DNA from: Calonectria ilicicola
Taxonomy: Eukaryota; Ascomycota; Sordariomycetes; Hypocreales; Nectriaceae
DNA: 64,000 nt
Assembly: GCA_020809705.1 (NCBI GenBank)
Contig: CP085826.1
Location: forward strand, 7,564,001 to 7,628,000
Direction of reading: 5' to 3'
Shown here: positions 29,991 to 62,230 of the stretch, in pieces
Numbering within the stretch: position 1 is the stretch's first letter
How the letters are laid out: every line of letters starts with the position of its first letter
Program-made: the position numbers and the translations under genes
The notes under the pieces: model-generated
The model's database searches: none
The model's input: the letters and a program-made list of their open reading frames with translations, nothing else
Told to the model about the DNA's origin: nothing

Positions 29991-32633
29991 CTACCAAATA
30001 TCATGCTCTGTTATTGTATGTGATATCCACTCCGTGTCGCTGTTGGCGATTGAATTGGCCATGTCGATTATTTGCGCAGTCGTCAACCAAATATCCGTCT
30101 GGTACTCGTCCAAACCAGGATCCAAGGGCGATATTGATTCGGCGATCGAAGAACCTTCTGCTTGTCCGGGGCCAACATCTGTCATTGAGCTTTCTACTAT
30201 ATTTTGCTGGACGGGGATGTTGATCGGAGTCTGCCCAGGGCATGGCGGAAGTTGCTTCAGCATATCGTCAAGTTGTTGTAATTCGGACTGACGGAATTCC
30301 GCGATTAGATTACCGCTCCCAACCATTTCGTGGAAAACGACTTTGGAAATATGGCGCCAGTGCTCGTTTTCTAGAAACTTGGGGTCGAGAACAGGGGCCA
30401 ATACAAGATTAAAACTGGATATAAAGAGCGGGTCGAGATCGAACGGAAGAAACTTTTCTGTTAAAAGTGTTAGAGAGAGCCTACTTCACGAGGACAGTGA
30501 TCTTACCTAATAGACCTTGACCCTGAAGACAGCCAAGAATAGTGATCATCTGTAGGGAGGAATCGATACACATTTTGACCAGATTCCAGACAGTTTGAGA
30601 AGAATTAAGAGAGTCAACATAGGACCCTGGAGACTCGAATCGAATTTTCAAGAAGCAAAACAAAAGCGGTCGCGTCGCAAGAACGATACACTATACTTAT
30701 TAGTACGGCTTGCTGATTACTAAGGGTGAGATTAAAGAAAAAAAAGACTTACCTGGTGATACAAAAGATGCAAATAACCCGATGTCCTCGAAACCCCATT
30801 AATGGCTCGGTCGGTATGCATGGGAAACGTTTGGTGAAGTTCATCAGCCAATCCCGCCACGCTTTCCAACACCTCCTTCGTACTCAGCAGGAACCTCTTA
30901 TTTAGTCTTCCATCAGTTCCATAAATGCCTAGACTCTGTTAGTATACAAAGATGCGAGGTTACTTTTTCTAAATTCTTTTTTACATACCCCTGTTTATTG
31001 TTGCAATAGTACGGGCGAACCGAATCTGCATGTTGAGGGCGGCGACGCGATGTGCGGAGCCATTAAAATGAGGGAGTTGGGGATGGATGTCATCGTCGAC
31101 AATTGACTGGGGCAATCCCATCAATGATGTCATTTCCCGATCAAGAACATAGGCAGTCCACCAAGCCTTACGGCTACGCTCCACAAGCTGGTCACCTAAA
31201 TCAAGTTGAGGCATATCTGTATGCATGCCTTGCCCAAGGGCCATCCGGATGGCTTGGCCAATCTGTCCAATAGTCAGCAGGAGTGTGGAACACAGGGTAT
31301 CAGTGAGCCTACAAAGTTGTAAGAGGAGTGTCGGAAGTCGAGACATTGGAAATACAAGGCGATGCAGCAGAGGACCTCTGTTGAGAGGATTGGGTCGGGG
31401 AAGAGAATGTGGATGCTTGGGAGGAGACGGAGTGCCTTGACAAAGTATTCGGATCCAGGTGGTCGTTTGGTGGAATTGCCGTGGCGGTTGTTCTCAACCA
31501 TGGCCTTGCCAAATGCGAGAATTACCAGGAGGTGGATATACTTGAGACCACCTGTGGTTATCTGCGTAGCTGGGTCCGCGTAAAAGTCGTACAGAAACTT
31601 CATAAACGACTCCTCATCAAAGAGGTGGAACACTTGGCTGCAGTGGAACTTGACCGTGTTGATCAGGTAAATGGCGTGGTCCAGGCTGGGGAGGGGCGGT
31701 GTGTCAGGGCCAAGGGTGGTGCGGGATCCATCCCATGCGAGGTCGTATGCAAAGCCGTCAAATAGGAACTTGGACGTCGAGACTGGCGTGTTGTAAATCA
31801 GCTCGTGTGTGAGGCTGAGCACACGGCGGCTAAAGGACCAATTCGATGACGTGCCGAGATAGACTGCGCTTGTGATTAGAGGATAAAGGCCTATGAGGTG
31901 GCGGCGGTGGGGGAGGGGAGAAGAGAAGAGAGACATACAGGTTCTTCCCTCATCCGACGTGATGAACTTGGACGGCCCCGTGGATAAGGGATTTGTGAGG
32001 GCAGAGGCGATGGGGTCTAGTCTGGTATGGCTATTTGTGCCCTGAGATTCCGACTCTGCGTTGGTGGTGGTGGTGGTGACATTAGTTTGGACTAGAGTGG
32101 TGTCCTCCTCCATGTACGACGTTGCGTCGACATCTCCTGTCAGTCAGTAAGCAGCTGTGCTGTGGTCAATATTGACGGGCGACGTACCATCGGCTCTAAG
32201 TGCATCATGGCTGGTGTCGAGAGAGCCCGGGGTGACATATTCTGCACCCTCGCGTCGCCTCAGATTGGCGACCTGCTCCTGCAGATCGAGTATGTACCTG
32301 ATAACATTGTTAATCCCACTCCGAGTCGACCAGGCAGGCCTTGGCTGCTCACCCCCGGGTGACGAGTATTTTCTGGTCTCGCTCATCAAACTCGCACGAC
32401 AGCTTGCGCTTTTTGCAAGCCTCGCACGGCTGCGAGCCGGAGCACTTGATCTTCTGCTTGCGGCAGCGTGTGCATCTGCATTCCAACGTCAGCGCCCGCT
32501 AAAAAGAAAGGGTAAGATGCCCTCAAAAAGGCCACACGCACGCGTTGCCGGACCGCTTGGACACCCGCCCGCGGTCCTTGCCCGAGTCGGTGGCTCCGGA
32601 CAGTCTACGGGGACGCGAAGATTCCGACGACAT
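29991..32633 (-). CDS. Zn2Cys6 transcription factor, candidate regulator of the (hydroxy)proline cluster
   Basis: Nuclear binuclear-zinc-cluster activator. Exons: 32633-32542, 32475-32353, 32297-32188, 32136-31313, 31262-30989, 30928-30753, 30690-30507 and 30457-29991. This gives about 749 aa, or 733 if the 48-nt in-frame GTATGT-CATAG segment inside exon 4 is an intron, as the alignment-like continuity LYPLITSAVYLGTSSNWSF suggests. The first splice assembles the cluster NACTRCRKQKIKCSG, then QPCEACKKRKLSCEF (six Cys). A short coiled-coil linker follows (YILDLQEQVANLRRRE). The fungal-specific middle homology region starts at YLGTSSNWSF and includes FHLFDEESFM and the block GQAIRMALGQGMHTD, then RKAWWTAYVLDREMTSLMG. 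The C-terminus is acidic and Ser/Pro-rich. It borders the aldolase gene on the same strand and is the only regulator inside the cluster, so it is the likely reader of the CGG-N8-CCG sites (inference). Confidence 0.92.
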
Positions 32634-33194
32634 TCCTCAGGGTGCTCTGCTCTAGATGGATATGCGTGCGCGCGCAGGTCGGCTATTTGGCAGGCTTCGA
32701 GAAGGCTTCGAGGGTCGGAGCAGAGGCAAAAGACGAACGGCAATGCTGGTCAGGAGAAGTCAGGACATGCCACGTCCAGGCGCCATATCTCACACATTCC
32801 GCCCGCGGCCACCCACTGGCACTAGCGAGATGCGGGGTAACAAGGGGTTCCATTCACTATCGTACGGGGATGAACTAACTAACACCTGCTATGCCGTAAT
32901 GAGGTTGGCGATGGGCGCTCTGGTGTGCTTTCTTATCGCACACGGAGTGTCGTGATGCGGCTTCTTCGTCAGGTGAACGTTGGAGAAGCCGTTCCTTTGC
33001 ACATGCAGATTACAGCTCCACCTACAGGCAGGAAAAAAAAAATCTTTACTCCAACACACACGTTTCGGAGCGCCACGCCGACTGGCGCCCTACTCCACAA
33101 GGCGGCATGTCTCACGACGTTGTCCGCGTGTATTTCCCCAAGCAAGGCGAGCCACCACCGAGAATCACCGATATCCACGTGTATCCCACAATCT
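32634..33194. other. Promoter region of the zinc-cluster regulator
   Basis: 560 bp between the aldolase stop and the regulator start. I found no CGG-N8-CCG element here (the nearest match has a 9-bp spacer near 33066), in contrast to the structural genes, so the regulator may not control itself through that site. Confidence 0.55.
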
Positions 33195-34196
33195 TCAATG
33201 CAGGCCGTGGTGCTCGGCCTTTGCCGCCCGCCTCATTAGTTCACGGACGATCCTCTTCACCGGCTCCCCGGCCGGGTCGTACGGATGCCGGGGTGCCAGC
33301 TTCTCTTCAGCATTCTCGACACCTGCAGACTTGGCTGAGTAGCACGCAACGGCATACTTGACAGCCGCAAGGCCATTTTTACACGGGCCCTCTGCTAGCG
33401 TCGCCGTTGTCTGCAACCTCATGGCGTCCTCAAACCGCCCCTGTCTGTACAGGCCATATATTTGGGCCGTCAGCGATGGGAACACGCTTGCGAAGTCTGC
33501 GATGCAGCCTGCACTCCCGGCGGCTAATCCACCGATGAGACAGTCCGACTGTCTGCTAAACGCTGAAAACTGTTCTGGCTGCAGCGAGATTGCCAGCCGT
33601 GTGATCTTGCCCACGGAGCCACATGCAAGATTCACACCCACCACGTTAGAGCGGCCGCTTGCATGCGTAGCGGCGCTCTCGCGATATATGGATAAGATGG
33701 TCTCTGAATCAATATCAACACCGTTGCACACTTCTGGGGAATTGTAAATCACCACTGGCAAGGGCGCCTTCTCTGCAAAGTTGACAAAGAAGCGCTTCAC
33801 CACATTCATGTTTGTGGCCTTGCCAAAGTAAGCTGGCGGGAGCACAAGCAGATAGTCTGCACCCGCCTTGGCAGCATCCTCAGCCAGCTGGAGGGTCTGC
33901 TTCGTGGAGTGAGCACCTACACCCACCATCAGGGGAAACCCGGGGCCAACCGCCTTGCGGGCCGTAGTGATGATAAGAAAGCGCTCCTCTCTCGTCAGAA
34001 GAAATGCCTCCGAGTTGGTGCCCAGAACAACGATCCCTGTAAGCCCGGACCCAGCGAGATAGGCAAAGAACTTTGCCTGGGACGACAGGTCCAATTGGTC
34101 GGTGGCATGGTTGAAGAAGGTGACTGCTGGAGACCAGACCCCTGCGGAAGGAACACGAGGCTGGTTTGATGAAGAATATGGGATGACGGTGCCCAT
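33195..34196 (-). CDS. DHDPS/NAL-superfamily aldolase, candidate 4-hydroxy-2-oxoglutarate aldolase with altered active site
   Basis: Single-exon 333-aa TIM-barrel protein of the class I DapA/HOGA-type aldolase family. In hydroxyproline breakdown such an enzyme cleaves 4-hydroxy-2-oxoglutarate to glyoxylate and pyruvate. Visible blocks are the N-terminal GVWSPAVTFF strand, the GTNSEAFLLTREER loop (family GTTGE-like), GVGAHSTKQTL, the YLLVLPPAYFG strand and VVIYNSPEVCNGVDI with the family Tyr. NVVGVNLACGSVGKITRL and GGLAAGSAGCIADFASVFP follow. In family members the Schiff-base Lys occupies the position after GV (GVK...); here the codon is AAT, Asn. This is read directly from the sequence, but the alignment is from memory. 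No mitochondrial presequence is evident. Two CGG-N8-CCG sites lie 220-310 bp upstream. Other aldolases of the superfamily (for example 3-deoxy-sugar acid) cannot be excluded. Confidence 0.85.
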   Translation of the reverse strand: MGTVIPYSSSNQPRVPSAGVWSPAVTFFNHATDQLDLSSQAKFFAYLAGSGLTGIVVLGTNSEAFLLTREERFLIITTARKAVGPGFPLMVGVGAHSTKQTLQLAEDAAKAGADYLLVLPPAYFGKATNMNVVKRFFVNFAEKAPLPVVIYNSPEVCNGVDIDSETILSIYRESAATHASGRSNVVGVNLACGSVGKITRLAISLQPEQFSAFSRQSDCLIGGLAAGSAGCIADFASVFPSLTAQIYGLYRQGRFEDAMRLQTTATLAEGPCKNGLAAVKYAVACYSAKSAGVENAEEKLAPRHPYDPAGEPVKRIVRELMRRAAKAEHHGLH

Positions 34197-34414: not shown

Positions 34415-34504
34415 CGGGTGCGCTTCCGGTGGCTGGCTCCGCGCTAGTGGAGATTGCAGTGACATTCTCCAATCATAACCAGCCACGCATCGGAAGCGGT
34501 CCCG
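34415..34504. promoter_or_regulatory. Two CGG-N8-CCG elements upstream of the aldolase
   Basis: Sites at 34415-34428 (spacer GTGCGCTT) and 34491-34504 (spacer AAGCGGTC) lie in the 724-bp region between the FAD oxidase stop and the aldolase start. Each is preceded by T and followed by G (TCGG-N8-CCGG). They are 76 bp apart. The form is an inward-facing CGG inverted repeat, as bound by zinc-cluster dimers; which protein binds is inference. Confidence 0.7.
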
Positions 34505-34920
34505 GCGTAACTTCGAATGGCGTGAAAAACGTCAAGCAACAATCCTGTTGTTAGTCATGTAATTCATAAAGCTTGTGAACAAGCCAGCCTTGGCTAGACT
34601 AGGCAAAGTATACGGATTTTATGCATAAGTGGCTAGACAATGAAATTCGAGGGATGCATCAGATGTTAACTCCGGAGTAGATTGCCTCATGATATCCTCG
34701 TATAGATAGATACTCATTATTAGACTCTGCATTATTTTATGAAATGTTTGTTTACATTGGTCACCATGTGCAATTATTAGGGGTAGATAGTTCGATTTCA
34801 AAATCATGAATTCATGTCTTATTCAGCTATAGGAATGGATCCCTATCGTATCCATTATTCGTCTTGATTACCATATTTACGAAAGAGATTCAGATAATAC
34901 ATCTAGTCTAGTCTAGATTT

Positions 34921-36305
34921 TTAGAGCTTGGCCACCGAGGGCTTGATTTCTTCAAATTCCTTGGACGATCCGAGACGCCAGCTCACCGAGGCGCCCCAGT
35001 TGCCCTCATCCTTGGCCTCGTTCTTCCATCGCCACCTAGGCACAGGCTGCTTGCCGTCCTCAGCAACCAGAAGATCCCTGACCCATTCTCCAACAATGGG
35101 GAACATCTTGAAGCCGTGGCCAGAGTCTCCAGAGAGCATTATGACGGAGGAGTCAGTACCAGGGACGTAATCGATGATGAAGTCGGAGTCCTTGGTGTCT
35201 GCGAACCAGCAGAGAGACCTCTTGACAAGGGGTCGCTCAGCGAGGTGAGGAAGGGTCTGAGCAAGGAGACGGCGGAGCTGGGCCTCGTCATGGGGAGGGA
35301 GGAAGGCACTCTCTTGCACGGTGCCTGGAGCGTGAGACACACCGGTAGCAGGGTCGGTGTTGATGTAGCCACCCCCCATGGGGCAGAGCTTCAGGAGCTT
35401 GGTAACCGGATCGGGCTCAAAGAAGAAACCGAGATCCCTGGCGTAGGTGACAGGGATGCCACGCAGAGCCGAAATCTCGTCGTCGTTGAGGAGAACGTGG
35501 GCGACGGACCAGGACTTGGCCACGAGCTGGGTACCAATCTCTGGAATAACCCTGCTTGCAGCTGCACCTGCGGCCACGATTACCAGGCCGGCGGGAATGA
35601 AGCGACCAGTGGCGGTCCTGACACCCTTGCTCTTCTTGCCCTTGGCCGTTTTCTCGTAGATGATCTCAGCCACAGCCCCATCCTTGCCAAGGAAGAACTT
35701 GACGCCTCGCTTTCTGACGACGTTGTAGAGACCCTTGACGGCGTTGCCTGAGTGGGCATAGCCGTCAAACTTGTTCAGGTATCCGTGCCATCCTGGCAGG
35801 GGACCTTGAAGCTGCCAGGCCTCGCTCAGGATAGTATCTCTACCCTTGATATCGACGACCTTGTCCTTCATAAGAGGGTTGCGCTCAGCGGAGGCTCGGA
35901 ACCTGTTGAGGGTGTCCAGAGCCTCCTTGGGGGCAGCACCAGACACGCAGTGCAGGAAGCCAGTCTGGTGGAAGTGGGGTGCAAAAAGAGGAGTTTTCCA
36001 CTTTTCAATTGCTCTCTGTATTGGAGAAGAAAAAAGTTAGATACTGGTCTTGTACTTGAAAATCAAGTTTAGCGGCAGGGGTGTTGGTTACTTACAATGG
36101 TCAAGTCGGTGTAAAAGTCATCTTCGTACTCAGCGCGGACAATCTTGTTGATGTCGTTGGCGGCCGAGAAGCGAGAAGGGACCTCCTCGTCCTTGTCCAC
36201 CACGGTGATGTCGGTGAAACCGGCCTCAAGAAGGTGATAGACGGTGGAGATGCCAAAGGCACCAGCGCCGACCACCAAGATTGGTTCGGATTTGCTGACA
36301 CTCAT
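34921..36305 (-). CDS. FAD-dependent amino-acid oxidase (saccharopine/pipecolate/fructosyl-amino-acid oxidase family)
   Basis: Flavoprotein of the monomeric sarcosine oxidase/amadoriase group that oxidises secondary amines. Two exons, 36305-36096 and 36015-34921, give 434 aa, the usual size. The Rossmann motif ILVVGAGAFGISTVYHLLEAG is followed by VVDKDEEVPSRFSAANDINKIVRAEY, the strongly conserved second block. The segment SLCWFADTKDSDFIIDY holds the Cys that carries covalent FAD in relatives. GDSGHGFKMFPIVGEWV is the C-terminal flavin loop. There is no signal peptide. The C-terminal VAKL is not a standard peroxisomal tripeptide, although its last three residues (AKL) resemble PTS1. The gene sits between the aldolase and P5CDH and carries two CGG-N8-CCG sites upstream. 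The substrate is not decided by sequence: an N-substituted or D-form proline, hydroxyproline, pipecolate or fructosyl-proline would suit the cluster (inference). Confidence 0.88.
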
Positions 36306-36461
36306 GATGGGTTGGAGAAGTGTGGAATCAATGTGACTTGATTTGTTCAAACTACTTCCAAGTGATTGAGACGGCACATATATGTGATCTTGAAATGTTT
36401 ACAAGCCGTAACAGAAGCCATTACTCGCCGAATTCGGACGGCGTTCCCCGACGGTATGCGA

Positions 36462-36491
36462 ACATCGAATTGGGGCGCGATGATTCGATGT
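36462..36491. repeat. 9-bp perfect inverted repeat in the FAD oxidase promoter
   Basis: Arms ACATCGAAT (36462-36470) and ATTCGATGT (36483-36491) are perfect complements separated by 12 bp, about 160-190 bp upstream of the oxidase start. A 10-bp perfect palindrome CCGAATTCGG lies just beside it at 36428-36437. Either could bind a dimeric regulator; neither matches the CGG-N8-CCG form. Confidence 0.55.
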
Positions 36492-36580
36492 CAGTGTTTA
36501 GCCACCGGTTACTAAGATACAGGACTCAGGTCGGGTTAGCTTAAGCGCAGTGTAGGTGACCGCTCACAAATTTGGGGTTA

Positions 36581-36624
36581 CGGGTGCGGTCCCGAGCCCA
36601 CGGACGGCGCCGGTAGGGTGCCCG
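36581..36624. promoter_or_regulatory. Two CGG-N8-CCG elements upstream of the FAD oxidase
   Basis: Sites at 36581-36594 (spacer GTGCGGTC) and 36611-36624 (spacer TAGGGTGC), about 280-320 bp upstream of the ATG at 36305 and 30 bp apart, both followed by A (CCGA). A CGG-N10-CCG arrangement, the published Put3 spacing in yeast, also occurs at 36435-36450. Confidence 0.65.
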
Positions 36625-37648
36625 AGATAAGCTAATCAGTTGAATCTGCAGGCCTAGAGGCGTACGCGAAGATCATGTGGCGACGCTATCGTGATCATGT
36701 GTTTCGTAAATGCGCCTGCATCATGCGGGGTATGCGTCGTGTGCCGATGAGATATGGGATCGATCCGACTGAGGGGCAGACGGGGGGTGTTGTAGGGGGG
36801 CCAGGTCCCTAATCTAAATTCCCGCTTAGCAACGCAAACTGTTCCCCATGGGGACGAAGCGCGCGTGGCTCGAGCTACCAGTGGAGAGACTGTTTTGGTG
36901 TCTAAAACTTGACACCTTTGGAATGTGTAGTCCAAATGTCAGACTAAAATGAGGTGCATGTTTTTTTTCACCATGCCAACTTTCAAGCCTCCATTGAGAT
37001 GCAACGGCATCCGGCAAAGTTACACCGTTCTGAATCCAATTACTAAAATCAATTCCATTCATAGTTAGTCGTCTGACAAGGTGGCAATCAAGGATGCAAT
37101 CATGCAATGTATCTACAGGGTTCGTGCTGCGAGATGCAGGGTAACAAAAAGTCGTCAAGCCAGGTGATCGTGATCTGGCACGGCGGTAAATACATGAGAC
37201 GAGCGTTGGGGTAACTTGGAGAGCCGGACCCACCGGGCGCCAAGTCATATTTCCGACAGTTGGGGCGAGACCGCCTTGTTGTTTTGGGGCATTGGGGACA
37301 TTGGAGAATCTCACAACAGTTGGGCTTACACCTCGTGATGGCGAAATCTTATCAACGCCGGGTAGGTGTTAAGTGTGGGCGATTTAAATATAGACTATGT
37401 TCCGTGTGCTACATGATGATGAATCCTAATTTATCTGGAGTCAGACTGAGCCAAAAATGAATTCATTACACTTGGGTATACAGGGATTGAAAATGTGCAA
37501 AGATGAATGATTTTTTCGTCACAACTTCACGGCCATGGTCATGGAGCAATGTTTTTTTTTTTTAACTGGTCATAAAATTTTTATTCATTTAGGCCGTGCT
37601 GCTATGGAGATACAGGTGATTCTTCTTTTGGAATCATAATATTCTAAT
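36625..37648. other. Intergenic region between the FAD oxidase promoter and the P5CDH 3' end
   Basis: About 1 kb. Open frames up to 162 codons on the minus strand (36826-37314) have no recognisable domain and no intron signals that lead anywhere. A T run is present at 37552-37563. Nothing else can be supported. Confidence 0.5.
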
Positions 37649-39573
37649 CTAGTGGTTGCTGGGGTACAAGAATTCGTTCTGGAGGAAGTACTCTTCCTTA
37701 ATTAGTCGGGGGCTGGTGAAGCGGCGGAGGACGTCAGCGCTGCCAGCTCGGTCGTTGGTACCACTGGAGCGGGCACCACCGAAGGACTGCTGGCCAATAA
37801 GGGCGGCAGTGGTCTTGCAGTCTGGAAGGGGTCGGTTAGTCTGCTGTCAAGCTGCAGTTGGGGTAGATGGGACTTACTAAGGTAGAAGTTACCGGCAGAG
37901 TATCGGAGGGTGTCTTCAGCCTCTCGGAGAGCTGCACGGCTGTTGGCGAAGACGGCACCAGTCAGGGCAAGACCGCCGCCGTTCTGGTCAATGCTCTTGA
38001 GGACAGACTGCCACTCGGAGTCCTTGTAGACGTGGATGGCCAGGACAGGTCCGAAGATCTCCTCGTTGAAGAGCTTGTGGTCAGGGGAGTCAACCTGGTA
38101 CACAGTGGGGTGGACATAGTAACCGACAGAGCCGTCGTATGTGCCACCAGCGATGAGCTTAACTGAGGAGTCGCTGTTGGCCTCATCGATGATGCCCTTA
38201 ATCTTGTTAAATGAGTTTCCGTGGATGACGGGGCCCATGAAGGCCTCGAAGTCCTTGTCGGGGCTACCAATGGTGATCTTCTCGATACCGGCCTTCAGGA
38301 GAGAGATGAACTCCTCAGCACGGGACTCGGGGATGTAAGCACGGGAAGTAGCAGAGCACTTCTGGCCCTGGTACTCGAAGGCGCCACGGATGGTGTGGTT
38401 AACGGCGTGGGGGACATCGGCAGTGGGGTGGAGGAGGTGGAAGTTCTTGCCGCTGGTCTCACCAACGAGACGGGGGAAGTCACGGTACTTCTTCTCAGCA
38501 ATACCCTGACCGACCTTGCCGTAGAGGTTGCGGAAGACCTCGGAGGAACCAACAAAGTTGAGACCAGCGAACTCGCGGTGGTTCATGACAACCTCAGTGA
38601 TCTCAGCGGCGTTGCCGGGGACGAACTGGATGACATCGGCGGGAAGACCGGCCTCGAGGAGGATCTTGTAAATGATGGTGCTGGGGTAGATGTTGTACTG
38701 GGAAGGCTTCCAGAGAACAACGTTACCCATGATGGCAGGGGCAATCAGGTTACCACCAATGGCAGTGAAGTTGAAGGGGGAGACGGCGTAGACGAAACCC
38801 TCAAGAGGTCGGTAGTCAACTCGGCTGTGGCTGGATTAGTACAAACGCCTCTATCATATGCGGTTATGCTGCAGGAAATCTTACCTCCACATGCCGTCAG
38901 TGCCACGCTCGGGCTGCTTCTCGTAGAGCTCAGCAGCGTAGTGGCAGTTGAGGCGGAAGAAATCAGCCAGCTCAGCGGCGGCGTCAATCTCACCCTGCCA
39001 GACGTTCTTGCCCTGGCCGAGCATGGTGGCGGCGATCAACTCATATCGGTACTTGGTGGTGGCGAGCTCAGCAGCACGCTGGAAGATGGCGGCACGGTCC
39101 ACGAAGGGGGTGTTCTCCCAGTCCTTCTTGGCCTTGAGGGCAGCCTCAATGGCGGCGGAGACCTGCTCCTTGGTGGAAAGAGGGTGCTTGGTGAAGGTGG
39201 TGGCGTGCTCAGCAGGGAGCACCTGGTCCTCAGAGTTGTGAATCTGCTGAGTAACACCACCGATGATGATCTCACTCTTCAGAGGGAGCTCGGAGCGGAG
39301 CTTCTTGAGGGCTTCCTCCACCTTGGCGCGCTCAGGCGAGTTGCGCTCGTATGTGGGCTATTGTAAGTGTTAGCTAAAGATGGAATCCCTGCATAAAATG
39401 TGAAATTAAATAAAAAAACATACGTTGGGCTCATTGCGAGCAGCGGGCAGTCTGAAAGGTAGGGTAGTCTTTGTGCGGCGCTGAGCAAAGGCCGAGGGCG
39501 TGGGTCGCAGACGGCGCGAGAGCATCTGGCTCTGGCGAGTCAAGTTCAACGCGGAAACCCTGGAAGAAGCCAT
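37649..39573 (-). CDS. Delta-1-pyrroline-5-carboxylate dehydrogenase (P5CDH, ALDH4 type), mitochondrial
   Basis: NAD-dependent aldehyde dehydrogenase that converts P5C/glutamate semialdehyde to glutamate and, in hydroxyproline breakdown, 3-hydroxy-P5C to 4-hydroxyglutamate. Four exons, 39573-39424, 39357-38885, 38824-37878 and 37821-37649, give 580 aa, a normal length. The first about 40 residues are Arg/Ser/Thr-rich without acidic residues (MASSRVSALNLTRQSQMLSR), a typical mitochondrial presequence. SPFNFTAIGGNL precedes WKPSQYNIYPS, the cofactor region. VGETSGKNFHLLHP holds the general-base Glu and GAFEYQGQKCSATSRAY the catalytic Cys. EEIFGPVLAIHVY and the C-terminal GARSSGTNDRAGS are also standard. 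It shares a 415-bp divergent promoter with the carrier-like gene, and a CGG-N8-CCG palindrome sits inside that promoter. Equivalent in role to Aspergillus PrnC or yeast Put2. Confidence 0.96.
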
Positions 39574-39733
39574 TGTCCCAATTGAAGAGATGAAGATCAG
39601 ATTGATACTGAATTGCAGAAAAGAATCGTTACTGGCCAGCTTCCAAGCGACTCTCTTATCCTTCTCAGGTTCTCACATCGCGAGTCAAAGCCGGCTCCGA
39701 TCCGGCGTCGGTTGACGGGTCCGACTGCGCTTA

Positions 39734-39759
39734 CGGATGCCGAGCCGGTTCGGCATCCG
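39734..39759. promoter_or_regulatory. 26-bp near-perfect palindrome containing two overlapping CGG-N8-CCG elements
   Basis: Perfect 10-bp arms, CGGATGCCGA (39734-39743) and its complement TCGGCATCCG (39750-39759), flank a core GCCGGT whose centre CCGG is itself palindromic. The palindrome holds CGG-N8-CCG at 39734-39747 and again at 39746-39759, so one operator could serve both directions. It lies 160 bp upstream of the P5CDH start and 230 bp upstream of the carrier-like gene start. Confidence 0.75.
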
Positions 39760-39988
39760 CTGGTCTGGAAGCTTGCCGAAGCTACCCATCACCGCCACCG
39801 GGAGACGATCCGATCGGGAATCTAACCAAGAATCTAGAGAGGGGTTGCTATCATGAGGTCTGCGAATTCTGCGACGTCGGATGGCATGGCGAGGAGCCGA
39901 GCATGGTACGTAAAGCATCATCGCAGCATCTCCATGTTGGCTTTTGGAAAGAAGACAATTTCCGGCTCCTCTTTCAATCAATCAGCCC

Positions 39989-40882
39989 ATGATGCAAACC
40001 CAGGCTCACGAGCGGGAATTGACCAATTACAACCCCCGTTGGGGGCGGCTGGCCGGAGATTTTGCCGCCGCAGGCGTCTCTGCCACCCTGGTGTCGCCCC
40101 CCATTACGCTCATCGACAGGTAATGCACAACCACAACAGTCCCTCTCAACATACGATGCCATGTTCCATACTGACTTTTCAGAGCCTTGTTTGAAAAGGT
40201 GTCGATGGGTAATCCCATCATCCAAGGCTTGCGTTCACATTGCATATCGGCTTTTACCCATCCCAAATATCTCTTTGCAGGGAAGCCGTTTCGTCTCATG
40301 TGGACCTTGTATGCTGGGACTTATGCTGTCGCCAACAGCTCAGACACTTTGGCCTCAGAGTTTTATGAGACTGCCGCAAGCTCGATAACCTTTGTGTTAA
40401 CAATGGCCGTCAACGTTCCCTTGGGAGTGTGGAAGGACCTAGAATTTGCAAAGATCTACGGTGCAACTGCACCAAGCACCCAGACTGCACCAGTCAAGCA
40501 AGCAGTGCCAAAGTCCGTGACTGGTGCGTTTCTGCTACGAGACGCAATCACAATTTTTGGCTCGTTTACCATGGCACCAATGCTATCCTCGGCAGTACCC
40601 GACAGCCTTGTCTCTAACCCGCATATGAAGGCCATGGTCAGCCAACTAACTGTACCTGTCTTCTCCCAATTTGGAGCCACACCAGTACATCTTTTAGGCT
40701 TAGACCTGTATAATAGACGGGGTGTCTCTTTTGGTAGTAGGATGACTCAGATCAGAAGAGATTTGGCATCAGCTACCCTAGTGCGATGTGCAAGAATTAT
40801 TCCAGCGTTTGGTTTAGGAGGTATTGCCAATATAGAAGCTAGATCAGCATTTCACAAGTTTTTTGAGCGAATCTTGAATTGA
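39989..40882 (+). CDS. Degenerate mitochondrial-carrier-like membrane protein in the proline cluster
   Basis: Two exons, 39989-40119 and 40183-40882, give 276 aa, close to the usual size of an SLC25 mitochondrial carrier (about 300). The start is the first of two adjacent ATG codons. The protein has several moderately hydrophobic helices with a carrier-like repeat feel. Repeat 1 is LAGDFAAAGVSATLVSPPITLIDRALFEKVS, listed here only as the blocks AGDFAAAGVSATLVSPP and TLIDRALFEK. A GAFLLRDAITIFGSFTMAPML segment lies in the middle and a third block is GATPVHLLGLDLYNR. The Px[D/E]xx[K/R] signatures are present only in weakened form, so this is a divergent relative or a fungal orphan family. Divergent transcription with P5CDH from one palindromic operator suggests a mitochondrial step of the same pathway, such as import of (hydroxy)proline or exchange of a product (inference). 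No substrate can be read from sequence. Confidence 0.75.
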
Positions 40883-40997
40883 AAATACATCATTCTCATT
40901 CACAAAAGCATGTTTTTCAAAAGTGTCATTGTCATTCACGTGGATAAGCACCAATGTGCAGCGTAAAATCATACTATTTATGCAGTAGTCTATTTAT

Positions 40998-41969
40998 CTA
41001 GTTCGTGTTTCGTGTATCATTAACGTGAGTGGTGTTCTCCATGAGCCGCGCCACAGTCACGGCTTCTCTAAGAGCACGTCCCAGGTGGCCCCTGACAGCA
41101 CCCTCCTCCATGACCATGAGCCCGCCAATGGTGCAGCCCTCTGGGGATGTACCCTGGTCCTTGAGGATTCCAGGGTGGATTCCACTCTGGAGCAGGGTGG
41201 CCGTGCCCAGCATGGATTGGTAAATCATGGTTTGAGCCGCGTCTCTCGGGACGCCAACAGCCACCGAGGCGTCAATGAAGGCGTCGCAAATGACAGCCCA
41301 GAAGGCTGGGGTAGATCCTCCAACTGCCGTGGTTGCGTTCATTAGTCTCGGGTGAATCTTGACCGTCTTGCCAACCTTGTCGAAAATGGCTGTAGTGAGG
41401 CTGAGGTGCTCTTCGGGCAAGGGTGGTCCCGTGGGATCAACCTCGATTGCGGTAAGTGCCTGAGCGACAGTTGCCGCAACGTTTGGCAGGGTGCGGACAA
41501 CGTAGCCCCGGTCCTTTTGGTTCTCTTCTGTTGTTGGGCTTCCAAAAATGGTAGTCTCCAGCTTTTGCCTTGTCCAGCCGGCCGCAACACTGATGATGAG
41601 CTTCTTGGCCAGGGCCTCGCGGAGCCCATCCTGCTGTAGCAGGCCTTCAATATCAGCAGGATCGACGGCAATAATTACAACCTCAGATTCCTGCGCTGCC
41701 TTGACATTCTCTCCGCGATAGACGGAGACTTTATCAGAGTACTCTGCAAATTCGCTGGCTAGAGTTTGTAGAGACTTTTCAGATCGCACACAGGCGATGT
41801 ACTTTTTGAATGGAAGGGCGCCATCGGTTGACTTGACGAGGCTTCTCAAAACGGCTCCTCCTTGGTTGCCTACACATCAACAACATGAGTTTTGATCAAT
41901 AGTAATAAAAATGACTATACACATACCAGCGCCAAGGACGCACAGAGTAGCATCCTGAAAAGTAGACAT
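40998..41969 (-). CDS. Pyrroline-5-carboxylate reductase family protein
   Basis: NAD(P)H-dependent reductase (ProC/P5CR family) that converts P5C to proline. Two exons, 41969-41927 and 41869-40998, give 304 aa; the intron splits the glycine-rich motif, which reads LCVLGAGNQGGAVLRSL when joined. VVIIAVDPADIEGLL is the NADP-fold second half, followed by KKLIISVAAGW and RTLPNVAATVAQALTAI. The C-terminal dimerisation/active-site helix region is AVGGSTPAFWAVICDAFIDA with QSMLGTATLLQSG and SPEGCTIGGLMVMEEGAVRG, where family members have the P5CR signature. It has no clear presequence. It lies between the carrier-like gene and PRODH with three CGG-N8-CCG sites upstream. A reductive enzyme in a catabolic cluster is unexpected: it might act on a pyrroline-2-carboxylate or hydroxy-P5C intermediate or form a proline-P5C cycle (inference). 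Confidence 0.92.
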
Positions 41970-42126
41970 GATGAGTAATGGCCGGAAAGTGAGTTTGTCT
42001 TGGTGTCCACTGAGTTACGAGGGCAGGTAAGACGTTGGAGGGGCGCTTTGAACAGTGATTGCGTGTGCTTCTGTCAGGGACTCACACAACACATACGAGT
42101 TATGTGTAGCACCAAAATAGAATAAA

Positions 42127-42368
42127 CGGGATCAGAGCCGAATCTACGAGAGATTGCCCAAACTACGGAGCCCTCCCCTCATTCGGGACCCGTACCGAAG
42201 TGGGGTCGCTGCCGTGTAAGTTTGGTTGAGCCGCACTCGGCTAGATCACTGGGGCTCTGCAGCTCTAGATTCTGGGGCATGACCTGGAGCTAATGACTCT
42301 GGGGCTCTTGGGCCCTGGACGCTTTGAACTCCGGGGTGATGGGGTGGCAAACGCCGGGGCCTTCGCCG
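42127..42368. promoter_or_regulatory. Three CGG-N8-CCG elements upstream of the P5CR gene
   Basis: Sites at 42127-42140 (spacer GATCAGAG), 42184-42197 (spacer GACCCGTA, with outer symmetry TTCGG/CCGAA) and 42355-42368 (spacer GGCCTTCG, in a GC-rich stretch and so more likely by chance). They lie 160-400 bp upstream of the start at 41969. An AGCCG-N4-CGGCT inverted repeat is also present at 42229-42242. Confidence 0.65.
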
Positions 42369-42611
42369 GCTCGCGACCCGCTTCTTGTCTCCCCGTGCTC
42401 CTTGTTTCCTCATTCTATCTTGTTCCCTCCGTGTTCCTTTTCCTCTTTCGTACTCCGGCCTCCGTCTTCGCTCTCTTATCAGGTGTCCGACGTGTCCGTG
42501 GGGGGCCTCAAGTCGGACCGGCTACAGCATTGAGTCACATTGGACGCCGCCAAGATTGCCAAAAGGCCGTTCATGTGATGACTTATTTTTAAATTCAATT
42601 TTTAGCTATGC

Positions 42612-44045
42612 TTATTTGCTACCGCTTCCAAACAAAAGAACACCCCGGAGTCTTCTCTTGGCCTCGTTCTTGAGTGCCGTGTACTCATCCATAGTTCGTG
42701 ACGCCGCATCCTTGTTCTCAATGGCTCTTCGGGTCAAGTAAGCCATGCACTCTGCAAGAGTGCCCCAAGTGGAGCACTTGTAAACCTCTGGGCCTGCCTT
42801 TCCATCCTCCTTAAGCTGAAGAAGGCCGAAGCTAACCTCGTCCGACATTCCGTGTAATTGCGCAAACTTGACTGAAACAGTGGGAAGACCGGCATCCAGT
42901 CGCTGCCGGTGGAGCTTGTGTGCAGTCACCACGCTCTCCCTGTTGTGACTCGCCAGCAGGAGATCCGCCGATGGGAATGGTCGTCCGTTGGGGGCGCCAA
43001 ACTCACCAAGCTCTCTTCGCAACACACCCTGGGCGATGCTGTTGTACGCGTTATCGGTGCCCTGCTTGGTGTCATGGATCAGAGATCTCTGATCAGACGC
43101 CATGTATGCGCCCCGCACCACCTTGACACCAAGTGTGAAGCCCTCCTCGAGCGCACAAGCCATGTGCTTGGCCAGAGTGTCTGGGGTGCTCTTGAGGTAG
43201 GCCTGGTAGGTGTTGTAAATAGTGGCAATACCGTCAGTGTTGTACTTTCGCATCAGGTCGATGGTCATGCGGGCAATTCCCTTTTGGAACTGCTGGGACT
43301 CGGCATCAACGAGAATAAAGGCCTTGCGCGCCTTGCACTTGGCGCTGACCTCGTTCATTGCATCGATCATCTGCTGAGGAGGGAGTTCTCCCCGGGAGAA
43401 CGCGTCTGTGACCTGGGGACCAGCTCCGGTCAACTTGACTGCCAACTGGTCGCCCTCGCTGAGGAACTCGACAGTTTCAACAGTGCCCTTTCTCCAGGCC
43501 TCGATGTTCTCGCACCACTGACCGGCCTCACTCTTTGCGCCGTTGACGCCGAGTCCTTGTGAAGTATTGGTAGAGTGATCAAAGACGGTTTCTTTGGCGT
43601 ATGTTAGGATGGTGCCTTTGAAGCCCATATCCTGCAGGCTTCGCATCGTCGCCTTCGTCTCCGCGCCATTCTCGCCAGCGCAAAATTGCTTATAAAATGT
43701 GGTTTTGAGGATAGAGCGTAGTAATGGGTTCTTTTCAACGTTAAAAAGGAATGTGCGATCTGGCTTTGAAATGAAGGATAGGAACCAGAGCGAAGGTGCT
43801 AGGAGAGCTGGTCTTGAGGAGATGGAATTAACGAAGATGGATCTTGCGAGCACTCCTGTTGGAAGTGCTGCTAAAGCTGTGTCTTCTTTGGCCTCTCCAA
43901 CATCTAAGCTCCGCACAGTAGAAGAAAGGCGGAGCTGTCTCTTGGTGGTATGTCTTAGCGCTGGTAGCATAAGAACAATGGTCTGTGTGCTGGTACCCGA
44001 GAGGGTAGATGTGGAGGGGAACTTTCGTGGGCTACCGATCAACAT
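42612..44045 (-). CDS. Proline (or hydroxyproline) dehydrogenase, mitochondrial
   Basis: FAD enzyme of the PRODH family that oxidises proline to P5C on the inner mitochondrial membrane; vertebrate PRODH2 paralogues oxidise hydroxyproline. It is a single exon of 477 aa, standard for fungal PRODH. The N-terminus is rich in Ser/Thr/Arg with few acids, as for a mitochondrial presequence. Conserved blocks are GFKGTILTYAKE, AVKLTGAGP, ILVDAESQQFQKGIARMTID (barrel strand with Asp/Glu), TIYNTYQAYLKST, LGVKVVRGAYMASD (catalytic strand), DLLLASHNRESV, QLHGMSDEVSFGLL and YKCSTWGTLAECMAYLTRRAIEN with the C-terminal Arg pair that binds the proline carboxylate. Equivalent in role to Aspergillus PrnD or yeast Put1. 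Three CGG-N8-CCG sites lie upstream. Preference for proline or 4-hydroxyproline cannot be read from the sequence. Confidence 0.95.
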   Translation of the reverse strand: MLIGSPRKFPSTSTLSGTSTQTIVLMLPALRHTTKRQLRLSSTVRSLDVGEAKEDTALAALPTGVLARSIFVNSISSRPALLAPSLWFLSFISKPDRTFLFNVEKNPLLRSILKTTFYKQFCAGENGAETKATMRSLQDMGFKGTILTYAKETVFDHSTNTSQGLGVNGAKSEAGQWCENIEAWRKGTVETVEFLSEGDQLAVKLTGAGPQVTDAFSRGELPPQQMIDAMNEVSAKCKARKAFILVDAESQQFQKGIARMTIDLMRKYNTDGIATIYNTYQAYLKSTPDTLAKHMACALEEGFTLGVKVVRGAYMASDQRSLIHDTKQGTDNAYNSIAQGVLRRELGEFGAPNGRPFPSADLLLASHNRESVVTAHKLHRQRLDAGLPTVSVKFAQLHGMSDEVSFGLLQLKEDGKAGPEVYKCSTWGTLAECMAYLTRRAIENKDAASRTMDEYTALKNEAKRRLRGVLLFGSGSK

Positions 44046-44357
44046 TGTAAAGATGAGACCAGGTGGCTGTGTTGAGAATGGAGAGTGATTATGGAGAGTT
44101 ACAAGACAAAGTTGGAGGAAGAGGCATCTGCTATTTGAATTTCATTATCTCGTTCTCGACTCCTCAGATGATTAGATTATAGGTGGCTGTGATAGCCATC
44201 GGTTCTCCTGCCGACGAGGCGATCGTGTGTGATACAGATAGTCGAGCGGGGTTGATAGTCACATGGACATTGCCAGCGCCTCCGTGCAGTAGTTTGCCGA
44301 CAATCGGAATGGGGAATGTGGGTAATATCGCCTCCTTTGAGGGCACGATTCATGGGT

Positions 44358-44846
44358 CGGAGGTGGTGCCGGCACCAAAAGCAATGCCAAAGGGTGGGAT
44401 AGATCCAATCCCTTTGATATCCGAGAGCGACTCGGCTTGCTCGCCCAGCAATCGGATCGACCGCCGTTGCTTCTTGGCTGCTCGCGGCTTAGGCCATGTG
44501 AGACGGATCACAGTCTAGAACAAATGCATCATTCGAAACCCCCACAGAATCTCTTTATATTTCCCCATGCGGAGATGTTAGAGTTACGTTCAAAGCGTTA
44601 CCGCTGACTAAGAAAAACACATAAATACGCGTCCAGATCGACCTGTTACCTAAGATTTATGTCCTTTTGTTTCAAACTATCTATTTTCCTCCGATACACG
44701 TTGGTTACGTGAGATGAGCCGAGTGGAATGCTTTCTGGTCACACACCCGATACCTAGTGAATAAGTATGATATAAATAAATAAATTTATCTAAATGTAAA
44801 TTATTTTATTTATGTATTTATTTATTTATTTTCGGCGATCAAACCG
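44358..44846. promoter_or_regulatory. Three CGG-N8-CCG elements upstream of proline dehydrogenase
   Basis: Sites at 44358-44371 (spacer AGGTGGTG), 44453-44466 (spacer ATCGACCG) and 44833-44846 (spacer CGATCAAA), each preceded by T (TCGG). They lie 310-800 bp upstream of the start at 44045, in the 940-bp region before the permease 3' end. A 111-codon plus-strand open frame at 44183-44518 covers two of them; it has no recognisable domain and is not called a gene. Confidence 0.65.
44772..44829. repeat. A/T-rich inverted repeat of TAAA units
   Basis: The 14-nt arms ATAAATAAATAAAT (44772-44785) and ATTTATTTATTTAT (44816-44829) are perfect complements around a 30-nt A/T-rich loop. They could form a hairpin between the permease 3' end and PRODH. 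A similar element occurs at about 48717-48750. Confidence 0.7.
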
Positions 44847-44985
44847 ATGTTTAGGACAGTTTATTTACATTCCTGGCAATCTTTCAAGAGGTGCATTGTA
44901 TAAAATTGCTAGTTAATTCATCATCTTAACAAGCTGTCTAGTGAACGGTAATTACTTGGTGAATATCTACATAACCAAAGGTGAT

Positions 44986-46715
44986 TTACATATCAGCGCT
45001 GGCTTGCTTATTTCTCTTGAAGCCCATCATTTGCAGGACTTCGTTCCAGAATCCAATATCGTCCTCTTCAAACGACGCCTCGTACGCATCAATTTGAGGC
45101 TTCTCCCATACCAAGTCTGCCTCATGGGGCTTAATAATGCTAGTACCCTTGCCAAATTTCCATCCAAAGTACAGAATAGGGCAAACCAGGACCATGGTGT
45201 AGTAGGTAAAGAAGGTACCCACATCCCAGTGACCGGGGAGGAACACGGAATATCCGTAAACGCAAACGACAGTGGTCAAGAAAATTCCGCTGATCCACGT
45301 TCCGTATGGCTGGAACCAACCAAAATAGGGTAGGCTTCTGCGATCCACACCTTGAGCGAGGCAGGCCTTGTAAAAGAAGATGTATGTGATGCAAATGACA
45401 ATGTAGTCAATGATTTGAGCCGCCGTGATGATGTTGGTGAGCCAAGTCAGCACCTTAGCAGAGCTGCTAGAAACATTGAGGAAAGCCAAGCAAGGGAACA
45501 GCATGATTACAACCAAGCAGTAGATTGGCACTCCAGATTTGGTACACTTGCGCAGGAACTTGGGAGCCTGGCCTTCTATCGCAAGACCGTAGAGAGATCG
45601 AGTTCCACAATAAGTGTACGCATTACCAGCAGAGAAAATACTGCTTACCAACAGCGCGTTTGTAAGGTGGGGAAGTACTCCAACTCCCAGGTTGTTCATG
45701 GCGATGACATATGGAGATGCTGAGGCAGTTCCCGCTCCCGATGAATCGCCAGAAAGAATAGACACAAGAGTCTTGTCATTGTATGGAATGGCCACTCCTA
45801 CAGTCAAGGCGCCGCCAATGAAGAAAAAGGCGAATCGCAAATAAGTCGTCTTGAATGCATTCTTGAGATACTTGCGAGGGAGTTTAGTCTCTCCAGCGAC
45901 CATGGATATATATTCGGGTCCGACGATTGTAAAGGCAGCGCTCCACAGGGAACCTAGGAATCCTTCAAACTTTCCAAGGCTGCCTTTTGTGATGTATTCT
46001 GCGAATGCGCCAGGTGTCTTCCAGTATCGGAAACCGTAGGCATCGTGTTGAGGGTTTCCACCGACCATCGTGATAAAGGTGAAGGAGAAAACGATGAAGA
46101 ACAAGAGAACTTTGCCTGAGGCCAGCCAGAACTCAGCTTCGCCGTACCATTTAACCGTAAACGCGTTGAGGAGGCTGGTTTCGTTGTGGTTAGCAATGGT
46201 GCAATATTGGCCTTGGACAGTTGGACTCACAAGTAAAGCACAACGCAAGCTGCCACAACAGCTGCCACTGGGATATCATCCCTCCAGAATGTTAAAACGA
46301 GATTCAGTGCAGAAATCTCGAAAGGAATAAGGACGGCTTCGTAGATGAAGAAGTTCCACCCGGCCATGAAGCCAAAAGCCTCATCAACCCAATGACCAGC
46401 CATTCGGATAAACGCACCCGTAACGGGCATAAAGACGGCCATTTCCGCCATGGAATTATTGCAGAGACCCAGCATCATAGAATAAAACGTATAAGCGATA
46501 AATAAACTCCCAGGACCGCCCTTGGCAAGGCCAGTTCCGATGCTGACGAAACTGGCTGTTCCGATGGAACCACCAATAGCAATCAGTTGGATTTGGCGGT
46601 TGCCAAGGTTTCGCTGGAGCTTATCCTGGCTAACGACTGATGTTCCAAGGTCGATACTGCCATTATCAGTGGCAATACGATCGACCTTTTCGCCAGCCTC
46701 TTTGTCGGATGCCAT
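44986..46715 (-). CDS. Amino-acid permease (GAP1/PrnB-type, APC superfamily)
   Basis: Plasma-membrane proton-coupled amino-acid importer of the fungal AAP family. Two exons, 46715-46231 and 46174-44986, give 557 aa with about 12 hydrophobic segments. The start codon at 46715 was chosen over an in-frame upstream ATG at 46784 because MASDKEAGEKVDRIA resembles the usual short acidic N-terminus. Family blocks include RQIQLIAIGGSIGTASFVSIGTGL (only the core IAIGGSIGTASFVSIG is diagnostic), AEMAVFMPVTGAFIRMAGHWVDEAFGF, GPEYISMVAGET and FSAGNAYTYCGTRSLYGLA. The hydrophilic C-terminus has VWEKPQIDAYE. Same strand as PRODH and P5CR, with one proximal and two distal CGG-N8-CCG sites upstream. By position it is the importer of the cluster's substrate, proline or hydroxyproline (inference from context and family). 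Confidence 0.93.
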
Positions 46716-46964
46716 GTTGGAAGGAATACGAATATGCAGTCTCAAAGTTGATGAGAACCTACGCAGTGATCGACACGGGTCCACCTGAGGCGATCACTGG
46801 CCTTTTATGGGAAAATGATCCAACTATCATGCATGTAGAAGCTGAGTGTGTTGCTATCTGGAAGCGACATGTTCGTACCACAGGGCTCCACCCCCGCAAA
46901 ATGTCTGCCTCAGCCAGGACAAGGGTGCCAAGTTAGCTATCAGCTTAGAGACTTCCCCAGGGAT

Positions 46965-47530
46965 CGGATGGATCCCCGGTGGGCCTCTGCATTATCCATA
47001 GGCTTGGGTGAACCATGGTGGCGCTATCTGGTGATGGGTGTCATTCTAGACCTTAGCGGCGCGAGGCCATTGACGAATTAGCCAGAGCTGAAAGCGGCGA
47101 TTTTGCCTCGTTGGTCACCATGTGCTGAGTCTAGATTCTAACGCTAGGCAGGTCTCTCTCACGGGCAGCTGTGCGCTAGTTCCAGCACAAGGATAGATGT
47201 TGGGGTGGATAGATAAAATGGATCATGTATTCGTCTACAGATAACTTATCATTGAATCCAGGCACGAATCTTATCTATCCTCCAATCAATATCATGCTAT
47301 CAAAATGGCCATTTGCTGCGACTATAGCTGGGTTCGCTTCTTATATCTAGCACTAGATGATTGATGGAGAACATCGTCTGATAATGCTAGATAGGAGATT
47401 GCTCCGAGCTAAATTCTGCGCCGGCGGGGCCATAAGACGCTTGCTGTGGCGAGATAGGCTGGTTTCTGGGGGCAATTCGGGAGCCCTCCCGAGTGTGCTG
47501 TGATTTAACATGATATCGGGACGGCTCCCG
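46965..47530. promoter_or_regulatory. Three CGG-N8-CCG elements upstream of the permease
   Basis: Sites at 46965-46978 (spacer ATGGATCC; 250 bp upstream of the start), 47478-47491 (spacer GAGCCCTC, with extended symmetry TCGGGAG/CTCCCGA) and 47517-47530 (spacer GACGGCTC). The two distal copies are 39 bp apart and about 760-800 bp upstream; no other gene lies nearby to claim them. Confidence 0.65.
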
Positions 47531-48903
47531 GCCACACCAACCAACGCCAAGTCACCAACCAGGACCAACCAATGTCAGAGCCATCCTCAGCCATTCCAAG
47601 AAAGGAATAAGCCCGGTAAGCGATGACGAAAAGCGTGGCAACGCGGGGTAACCTCAATATCACCAACGATTGAGTCAGGTATCAGAACCATGGTCTTTTG
47701 GAGCGGCTGAGGCGGGGACGCCGATTGGCCTTCGGACAGCAGGATACTGATGCTGCATCTATGCCAATCGTTATCATTCACCGCCCTATGATGGACCCTC
47801 AACTATCCCTATTCAAGCAGTTGGATCAAACTCATCCCTTGGATCACTTATTGACCCATGCGTATCCTTGCGAATCTGGAGAAATGGGCCCACGCATATC
47901 CACTCGTGGTTTTCCAAGTAGATAATCGCGGTTAGGTTTATGAGTTCACATAGATCTATCATTCTATGGAAGATTTTGGGTCTTTGAGTAAAGAATAAAA
48001 GAGTCAACCGTAAGCCAATCGCTGGCATCTCTAAACCGACAAACTGTTCTAGACAATATGTTTCACATAGTCGTAAGCTTACGAGTTGCCAGACTCTCAT
48101 CTTCTCTCACCATAGATAGCCAAATGCCCCAATAATCGGTTCGCGTGGATCTAAGACCACAGTTTAAGCCGGGCCATGACCCTCACAACCCAACCATTCT
48201 TGGAATCATAAAACGCATAATATTAAATGCACACCAAATTTAAGGATACATGTTGACTGTTCAGTAGCATCCTTTGGTCGGACATTTACCCTAGAGCCTA
48301 ACTACCTGATGTGTTCCTGTCAAACACCTACTTGAACTTTGGGATGTAACTCTTAGTTTTCATCATTTGTTATTAGTTTGCGATCCATAAAAATGGTGCA
48401 GGCTAATTGCTGCACTACGTTACGACCCTGCCCAGGGTTGAGAGGCTTATTACTGTCTCTTAAATACTCGTTCTAATAGTCAGATCTGGTTAATCCGCGT
48501 GTCAAGAGGGGCCACCCGAACGACGGAATATTCTTTCCGGAATCACCCGACTATCCAAAGATGCAGAAACTCAATTTAACAATAAATCCAACTTAAAGTC
48601 TTCCTGTCCGCACATATATATTGTACTAAATGTACAACTGAAGCTCTCTGGTTATGGTGTGTCGGAAATTTCTACTAAACCCTAAGACAAAAGTTTTTTT
48701 AATAAATAAAAATGTAAATAAATAAATAAATTCACATAAATATTTATTTAGTTCTTGCTTTCAACTTTTCTGTGCAATATTGTGATTTCCCCAATTTATT
48801 ATTTCCAAATTGACAGAAAGATATCCGTTTTTCCCAGAAGAGGCTTTCGTATGTGAGAAGTGCTGTTTGAGGGTCAAGTGAAAACAACGTGATATTCTAG
48901 GCT
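47531..48903. other. Intergenic region, no recognised gene
   Basis: 1.4 kb with only short open frames, A/T-rich towards 48.7 kb. It marks the right edge of the proline cluster. Confidence 0.5.
48717..48750. repeat. Second A/T-rich inverted repeat of TAAA units
   Basis: TAAATAAATA units at about 48717-48734 face the complementary TATTTATTTA at 48741-48750. It shares the AATGTAAAT core with the element at 44772-44829. The pair brackets the permease gene and its promoter; this may be coincidence of simple repeats. Confidence 0.5.
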
Positions 48904-52357: not shown

Positions 52358-52611
52358 TCACTAGAGAGGCCGGGCAGAGCAAGACATGTTATGCCAAATA
52401 TATCAAGGAAGCTTGATTCTCTTCGCTCTCGCCATTTTAAAAATTTAAATAGAAGAATGGTTAAAATTCGAGTTGCTTTTTCTTATCGTAGCCCTCTCAA
52501 AAGACCAATCACTTTACTTATCCCTGTCAAAAAGAGAGACATTATTGGACCTGAAGACCAAATTTAGCTCCAAAAACGACTTGTGTAGATCGAATATAGC
52601 AGACTAGTACA

Positions 52612-61904: not shown

Positions 61905-62230
61905 ACTTATAGTCCTCTGGGGTGTTTGAGATGGATTATTATATTTAAAGATTCGATTTCAAGGACTCGGAATTCTAACCGCATTTTTCTTCTTGGTACA
62001 AATTATTCAGTGTTGGGAACCATTGCCCGTGTTACTTCTCCGAGTGGCGGGCGCTTGAGCCACCTGGGTCAAAGCCGGCTAGCGCTGAATTATTTGTCCC
62101 GCACTAAAAAACACCGTTGCAGGGGGGTTCTAGAGTTTGCACGTGAAGTGCAAAATACACTCCTGGTTTTCTACCCCATCTCTCGCTCGTACATCATTCC
62201 CATTACAATTACTTCATCCACCAATTCAAG

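Follow-up and report, generated by a model that had tools for sequence, protein, structure and literature searches.

CGG-N8-CCG sites before the genes of a proline/hydroxyproline-type cluster in Calonectria ilicicola: candidate operators of a linked Zn2Cys6 regulator

A 64 kb (64,000 nt) stretch of the Calonectria ilicicola genome, referred to here as the window, contains a gene cluster of proline/hydroxyproline type, and an inverted repeat of CGG triplets set eight bases apart (CGG-N8-CCG, or N8; other spacings are written in the same way) recurs in the 5' regions of its genes. The question raised by this locus is which protein reads the repeat, and how its spacing relates to that used by known proline regulators. 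In our judgement, 18 of these elements most probably serve as operators (upstream activating sites) for the Zn2Cys6 regulator that is encoded beside the cluster.

A single spacing upstream of six genes

A sequence-only reading of the window had listed 15 N8 elements and placed copies 5' of each structural gene. When the window was scanned again, 15/15 coordinates were recovered exactly, and each of the six pathway genes was found to carry 2-4 copies. Four further matches absent from that list (39799, 40054, 42367 and 44200) lie in the same stretches, and the 5' regions as first set by hand (4,313 bp) held 19 in total. Since the match at 40054 falls inside an open exon of a carrier-like gene, 18 sites were left, and all 18 were contained in the 5' regions once these had been refined for the six genes (5,030 bp). 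Moving the carrier boundary to its second possible start enlarged these regions to 5,153 bp, and the count was still 18.

The same 5,030 bp were scanned with the other 30 spacers between 0 and 30, which gave a mean of 1.77 and never more than 6. From the frequency of N8 in the genome (12,560 in the 69.93 Mb searched), 0.90 would be expected (Poisson P ~1e-17). Comparison with genome density was one of three refuting conditions set beforehand, and the proposal withstood it: N8 here ran at ~20x the genome rate, with the enrichment confined to one spacer. The whole window contained 27 N8 elements versus 7.85 +/- 2.66 in 100 dinucleotide shuffles, of which 0/100 reached 27; positions 1-30000 and 48000-64000 combined contained 5, and the bodies of the cluster genes contained 3, within the range of 0-5 given by other spacers. 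Genome totals for the neighbouring spacings were 9,455 (CGG-N7-CCG) and 11,299 (N9), making N8 commoner by 1.33x and 1.11x, respectively. This genome-wide preference is slight and far short of the local count, and the excess is therefore local. Direct repeats were rejected as the primary signal, the combined 13 copies of CGG-N9-CGG and CCG-N9-CCG being ascribed to N8 sites with a terminal CCGG. A search for paired N8 elements as a possible mark of a genome-wide regulon returned 52 + 41 strand matches, of which the cluster accounted for 2. The sites, with the excluded coding match, are as follows.

34415..34428, N8 site, aldolase, 219 bp upstream of the ATG
34491..34504, N8 site, aldolase
36581..36594, N8 site, FAD oxidase
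36611..36624, N8 site, FAD oxidase, low motif score
39734..39747, N8 site, P5CDH/carrier-like intergenic region
39746..39759, N8 site, P5CDH/carrier-like intergenic region, 2-base overlap with the 39734 site
39799..39812, N8 site, P5CDH/carrier-like intergenic region, newly added
40054..40067, N8 match in carrier-like exon, excluded from the sites, scoring lowest of the 19 against the motif (8.6)
42127..42140, N8 site, P5CR
42184..42197, N8 site, P5CR
42355..42368, N8 site, P5CR
42367..42380, N8 site, P5CR, 2-base overlap with the 42355 site, newly added
44200..44213, N8 site, PRODH, newly added
44358..44371, N8 site, PRODH
44453..44466, N8 site, PRODH
44833..44846, doubtful N8 site, PRODH, 788 bp upstream, low motif score (10.3)
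46965..46978, N8 site, permease
47478..47491, N8 site, permease
47517..47530, N8 site, permease, top motif score (19.1)

Gene models were spliced by hand, and the refined ATGs were placed at 34196 (aldolase), 36305 (FAD oxidase), 39573 (P5CDH), 41969 (P5CR), 44045 (PRODH) and 46715 (permease). Measured from these positions, the nearest site lies upstream by 219 bp for aldolase, 276 bp for FAD oxidase, 161 bp for P5CDH, 158 bp for P5CR, 155 bp for PRODH and 250 bp for permease, and a range as tight as 155-276 bp arose in 0.85% of random placements.

The sites also share bases beyond the triplets. A or T (W) at +2 followed by G or C (S) at +3 after CGG was found in 27/38 cluster half-sites versus 56/200 background half-sites, for which the 100 N8 sites listed first for contig 1 were used. 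The associated p of 1e-6 is only a guide, because the positions were picked after the cluster had been seen, the two halves of a site are not independent, and the 38 half-sites derive from 19 matches, with the coding match at 40054 included. Outside the triplets, the claim that most elements are preceded by T or A fits the counts (T 18, C 13, A 4, G 3 among the 38 half-sites) less well than a pyrimidine, which precedes CGG in 31/38, a figure from the cluster counts alone. The strict motif YCGGRWSNNSWYCCGR was found 67 times in 69.9 Mb and 5 times in the cluster's 13 kb, and among 50 of the 67 sites listed, no pair besides the cluster's five lay within 40 kb. The motif CGGNWSNNSWNCCG had 845 matches genome-wide and 11 in the promoters as first delimited by hand; both motifs were derived from the cluster itself. 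Flanking sequence varies between sites.

The cluster, its regulator and known proline systems

The genes served by these sites, together with the regulator proposed to bind them, are arranged as follows.

29991..32633, minus strand, Zn2Cys6 regulator, nine exons, 724 amino acids, hand-spliced open frame, proposed site binder
33195..34196, minus strand, aldolase, DHDPS family (PF00701, E 2.1e-30)
34921..36305, minus strand, FAD oxidase, two exons (PF01266)
37650..39573, minus strand, P5CDH-like aldehyde dehydrogenase, four exons (PF00171); lower bound approximate, stop just below
39992..40882, plus strand, carrier-like gene, divergent from P5CDH, open spliced frame; start uncertain, alternative ATG at 39853
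40998..41969, minus strand, P5CR, two exons (PF14748 and PF03807)
42612..44045, minus strand, PRODH, single open frame, 477 amino acids (PF01619, E 1.4e-51)
44986..46715, minus strand, amino-acid permease, two exons (PF00324)

The cluster probably breaks down proline and hydroxyproline, a pathway made plausible by the family assignments of PRODH, P5CDH, P5CR and the permease and by a solved relative of the aldolase, whose second-best PDB relative is named 4-hydroxy-2-oxoglutarate aldolase (the best is a putative family member). The nearest PDB entries to the FAD oxidase are fructosyl amine oxidases, so it is chiefly the aldolase that supports the hydroxyproline label. Such a fructosyl-amine-oxidase-like enzyme (34921-36305) is unexpected in a proline cluster. 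The carrier-like gene gave no Pfam match above the cut-off.

The linked regulator is intact and carries both Zn_clus (PF00172, E 5.5e-8) and Fungal_trans (PF04082, E 8.9e-16) domains above the cut-off. Its DNA-binding region matched 26 PDB sequences, of which PUT3 was the best, with 52 residues aligned gap-free (E 4.3e-9). Among the 120 listed of 313 matches, relatives of the regulator ranged from Ilyonectria robusta (72%) by way of Fusarium, Colletotrichum and Penicillium to Aspergillus (~50%), a spread that points to a fungus probably in or near the Nectriaceae, and 98/120 had the zinc-cluster pattern. The distance from the last Cys to the aromatic residue at the start of the dimer helix was exactly 14 residues in 94/98 of these, 25 in 1, and unmeasurable in 3; it is also 14 in the window regulator and in PUT3. 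One predicted protein of Lasiodiplodia theobromae (P0055) combines a DHDPS domain with the regulator's Fungal_trans domain. It is probably a merged model of adjacent genes, and this fusion record suggests that aldolase and regulator are neighbours in Lasiodiplodia too. A scan of viral sequences for an orthologous locus returned nothing, and one of prokaryote genomes returned nothing that held up in tblastn.

Two described systems invite comparison. Saccharomyces cerevisiae Put3 is likewise a proline regulator that recognizes inverted CGG triplets, and among solved structures it matches the zinc cluster and linker best; according to the available part of PMC5729217, its sites are CGG(N10)CCG, as the sequence-only reading stated, and it also contacts the spacer. 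Unlike Put3 targets, the 5,030 bp of window 5' regions contain 2 N10 elements against 18 of N8, which rules out the Put3 site type in these promoters. The prn cluster of Aspergillus nidulans resembles the one in the window in that its permease, PRODH and P5CDH genes are linked to a gene for a Zn2Cys6 regulator (PMC5983819, available part), and the sites of its regulator, PrnA, are given as CCGG-N-CCGG or CCGG-6/7N-CCGG in the accessible text of PMC5983819 and PMC12941744. In contrast, CGG-Nk-CCG with k = 1, 6 and 7 occurs 1, 2 and 1 times in the 5,030 bp, and the PrnA site type is ruled out in the window promoters on these counts. The prn genes named in the available part of PMC5983819 also exclude the aldolase, FAD oxidase and P5CR, all of which are present in the window cluster.

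The eight-base spacer had been put forward as a distinct specificity. That description holds against Put3 and PrnA and does not hold more widely, because in the available portions of published accounts CGGN8CCG already appears for other Zn2Cys6 proteins: as a putative site of ClrB, as a suggested site of GliZ, and within a fragment bound by BcSpd1 in an electrophoretic mobility shift assay. The triplets, orientation and spacer in these portions are identical to those of the window; the pathways are different ones, and single sites or promoter lists are described there, whereas an array extends over one cluster here. The site type is therefore not new. No report of an N8 proline/hydroxyproline regulator, or of an N8 array over a proline-type cluster, was found in the open-licence literature searched by phrase and topic.

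Spacings at paralogous loci

With the regulator and PRODH as queries, several related loci were found in the genome. Twenty stretches of 10 kb were taken, some for a regulator or PRODH paralogue and some for an N8 pair, plus one of 7 kb; the sampled loci are a subset of the genome's regulator matches. Nine stretches representing eight loci, picked for regulator homology, were pooled (L027, L028, L029, L032, L033, L034, L041, L043 and L045). Across this pool CGG-N9-CCG numbered 39 versus 4-19 for other spacers (mean ~12), and with L032 removed N9 numbered 27 and the next highest spacer 18. N9 was the commonest inverted repeat at 4/8 sampled paralogue loci. At L032 (C1:7881001-7891000), next to the closest paralogue by sequence, there were 12 N9 elements versus a mean of 1.2 for other spacers. 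Intergenic counts at the four loci were as follows.

C1:7.88 Mb (L032), intergenic, N9 top, 10; permease, NmrA-like, cupin
C7:4.66 Mb (L027-L028, C7:4660001-4680000), intergenic, N9 top, 7; PRODH, aldehyde dehydrogenase, RidA-like
C3:1.84 Mb (L029, C3:1840001-1850000), intergenic, N9 top, 4; aldehyde dehydrogenase, PRODH, flavin reductase
C3:6.31 Mb, intergenic, N9 top, 4

The intergenic pieces were delimited after the sites had been seen. Whole-stretch counts are independent of that choice; at three of the four N9 loci they were modest (5-6 versus means of 0.8-1.7), and at two of these loci a direct-repeat class outranked N9. PRODH, aldehyde dehydrogenase and flavin reductase genes stand beside a regulator paralogue at L027-L028 and L029, where the N9 sites are intergenic. 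In a protein tree, the window regulator grouped with Ilyonectria, Fusarium and Clonostachys proteins (100/99), and its nearest kin in the C. ilicicola genome were the N9 paralogue L032 and L034, in a tree whose deeper forks are weak and in which two long N9 branches meet. A strict-motif N8 element lies just upstream of another regulator paralogue at position 6127 of L034 (C6:56126), raising the possibility of cross-regulation.

Other spacings were found at further loci. At L044 (C8:4305001-4315000), which contains P5CR, aldehyde dehydrogenase, PRODH and an amino-acid transporter, CGG-N1-CCG numbered 10 versus a mean of 1.04, a spacing that resembles the CCGG-N-CCGG of PrnA. At L025 (C7:876001-886000), a PRODH 61% identical to that of the window stands beside a permease, and N8 is the top inverted repeat, with six copies in 10 kb, 3/6 of them upstream of PRODH/permease. 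A regulator beside this pair was not found, and the N8 sites scored unevenly against the extended half-site (14.6, 7.2 and 12.2); the indication that L025 belongs to the same regulon as the window cluster is only suggestive. L035 (C11:4078001-4088000), picked for N8 pairs, has nine N8 elements near an AMP-binding/reductase gene and an amino-acid transporter.

What reads the array, and what its spacing may mean

The assignment of the sites to the linked regulator is drawn from the count itself (18, where other spacers average 1.77 and the genome rate predicts 0.90), the tight distances to the ATGs, the W-S half-sites, the adjacent intact regulator with its likeness to PUT3, and the parallel offered by N9 at paralogous loci. 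The regulator would bind as a homodimer, one zinc cluster per CGG at a distance of eight base pairs, and would further prefer A/T followed by G/C two and three bases inward of each triplet. Aldolase, FAD oxidase, P5CDH, P5CR, PRODH and permease would be switched on together, the divergent carrier-like gene perhaps being co-activated with P5CDH, and the inducer would probably be proline or hydroxyproline. That the elements have the form of a zinc-cluster dimer site, as the sequence-only reading proposed, is supported; we infer that the linked regulator binds them, activates the genes and responds to such an inducer.

Several observations weigh against this assignment. The regulator's own promoter, described earlier as lacking the element, indeed contained zero N8 sites when scanned (32634-33194). 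The extended half-site was picked post hoc, with single positions no better than p 0.01, and motif scores are low at 44833 and 36611. No spacer was dominant at 4/8 sampled paralogue loci (L033, L034, L043 and L045), nor at L026, a PRODH locus with a zinc-cluster gene that lies outside the pool, and the link between regulator and spacer is therefore not universal.

Among other explanations, the best survivor, which we nevertheless consider unlikely, is that an unlinked N8-preferring Zn2Cys6 regulator binds these promoters and the linked factor works through other sites. It would accord with the published CGGN8CCG sites of unrelated Zn2Cys6 proteins, with multiple N8 elements per 10 kb elsewhere (9 at L035, 7 at L042 and 6 at L038, all three picked for an N8 pair), and with the PRODH-permease pair of L025, which has its N8 elements with no regulator found beside it. 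However, the linked regulator adjoins the cluster and is of the right family, and at four sampled loci with other paralogous regulators a different spacer lies nearby. It is less probable still that the linked regulator acts as a heterodimer or with a second Zn2Cys6 protein, the N8 spacing then reflecting the protein pair: many sites are imperfectly symmetrical, several pairing a CCGG end with TCGG or ACGG, but the top-scoring sites (47517, 34415, 34491 and 47478) are alike from both halves, and no candidate for a partner turned up. An origin in chance, base composition or a dispersed repeat is scarcely credible. N8 does outnumber N7 and N9, the other two spacers with genome totals, but the spacer control on the same bases and the genome rate rule out chance and composition, no shuffle reached the window count, and the site flanks differ.

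If the sites are operators of the linked regulator, their spacing bears on how such proteins measure distance. Half-site spacing of Zn2Cys6 proteins is usually ascribed to the linker (PMC6080790, available part). Directly after the zinc cluster, 14 residues align gap-free across the window regulator, its paralogues and Put3, and linker length alone therefore seems not to set the spacer, since N8, N9 and N10 accompany a stretch of the same length. Linker length as the cause of spacing is thus unsupported within the 14 residues compared, beyond which the unspliced paralogues run into introns. The contacts that Put3 makes with its spacer, as described in the available part of PMC5729217, suggest that residues rather than length could decide spacing.

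The chances seem to us evenly balanced that a spacer code operates, in which paralogous regulators, each next to amino-acid genes of its own, keep CGG and the 14-residue stretch and have had their spacing shifted by single bases (N8 in the window, N9 at four loci, N10 in Put3), ending cross-talk. If such a code is true, it would be residues in the linker strand or the dimer helix, not linker length, that fix the spacing. One genome then seems to supply a natural series, in which the post-zinc stretch is of the same length, the sites differ by single bases, and each regulator's own genes serve as the read-out, so that the spacing question becomes directly testable. The array also provides a predicted operator for a regulator whose listed relatives extend to Fusarium, Colletotrichum, Penicillium and Aspergillus.

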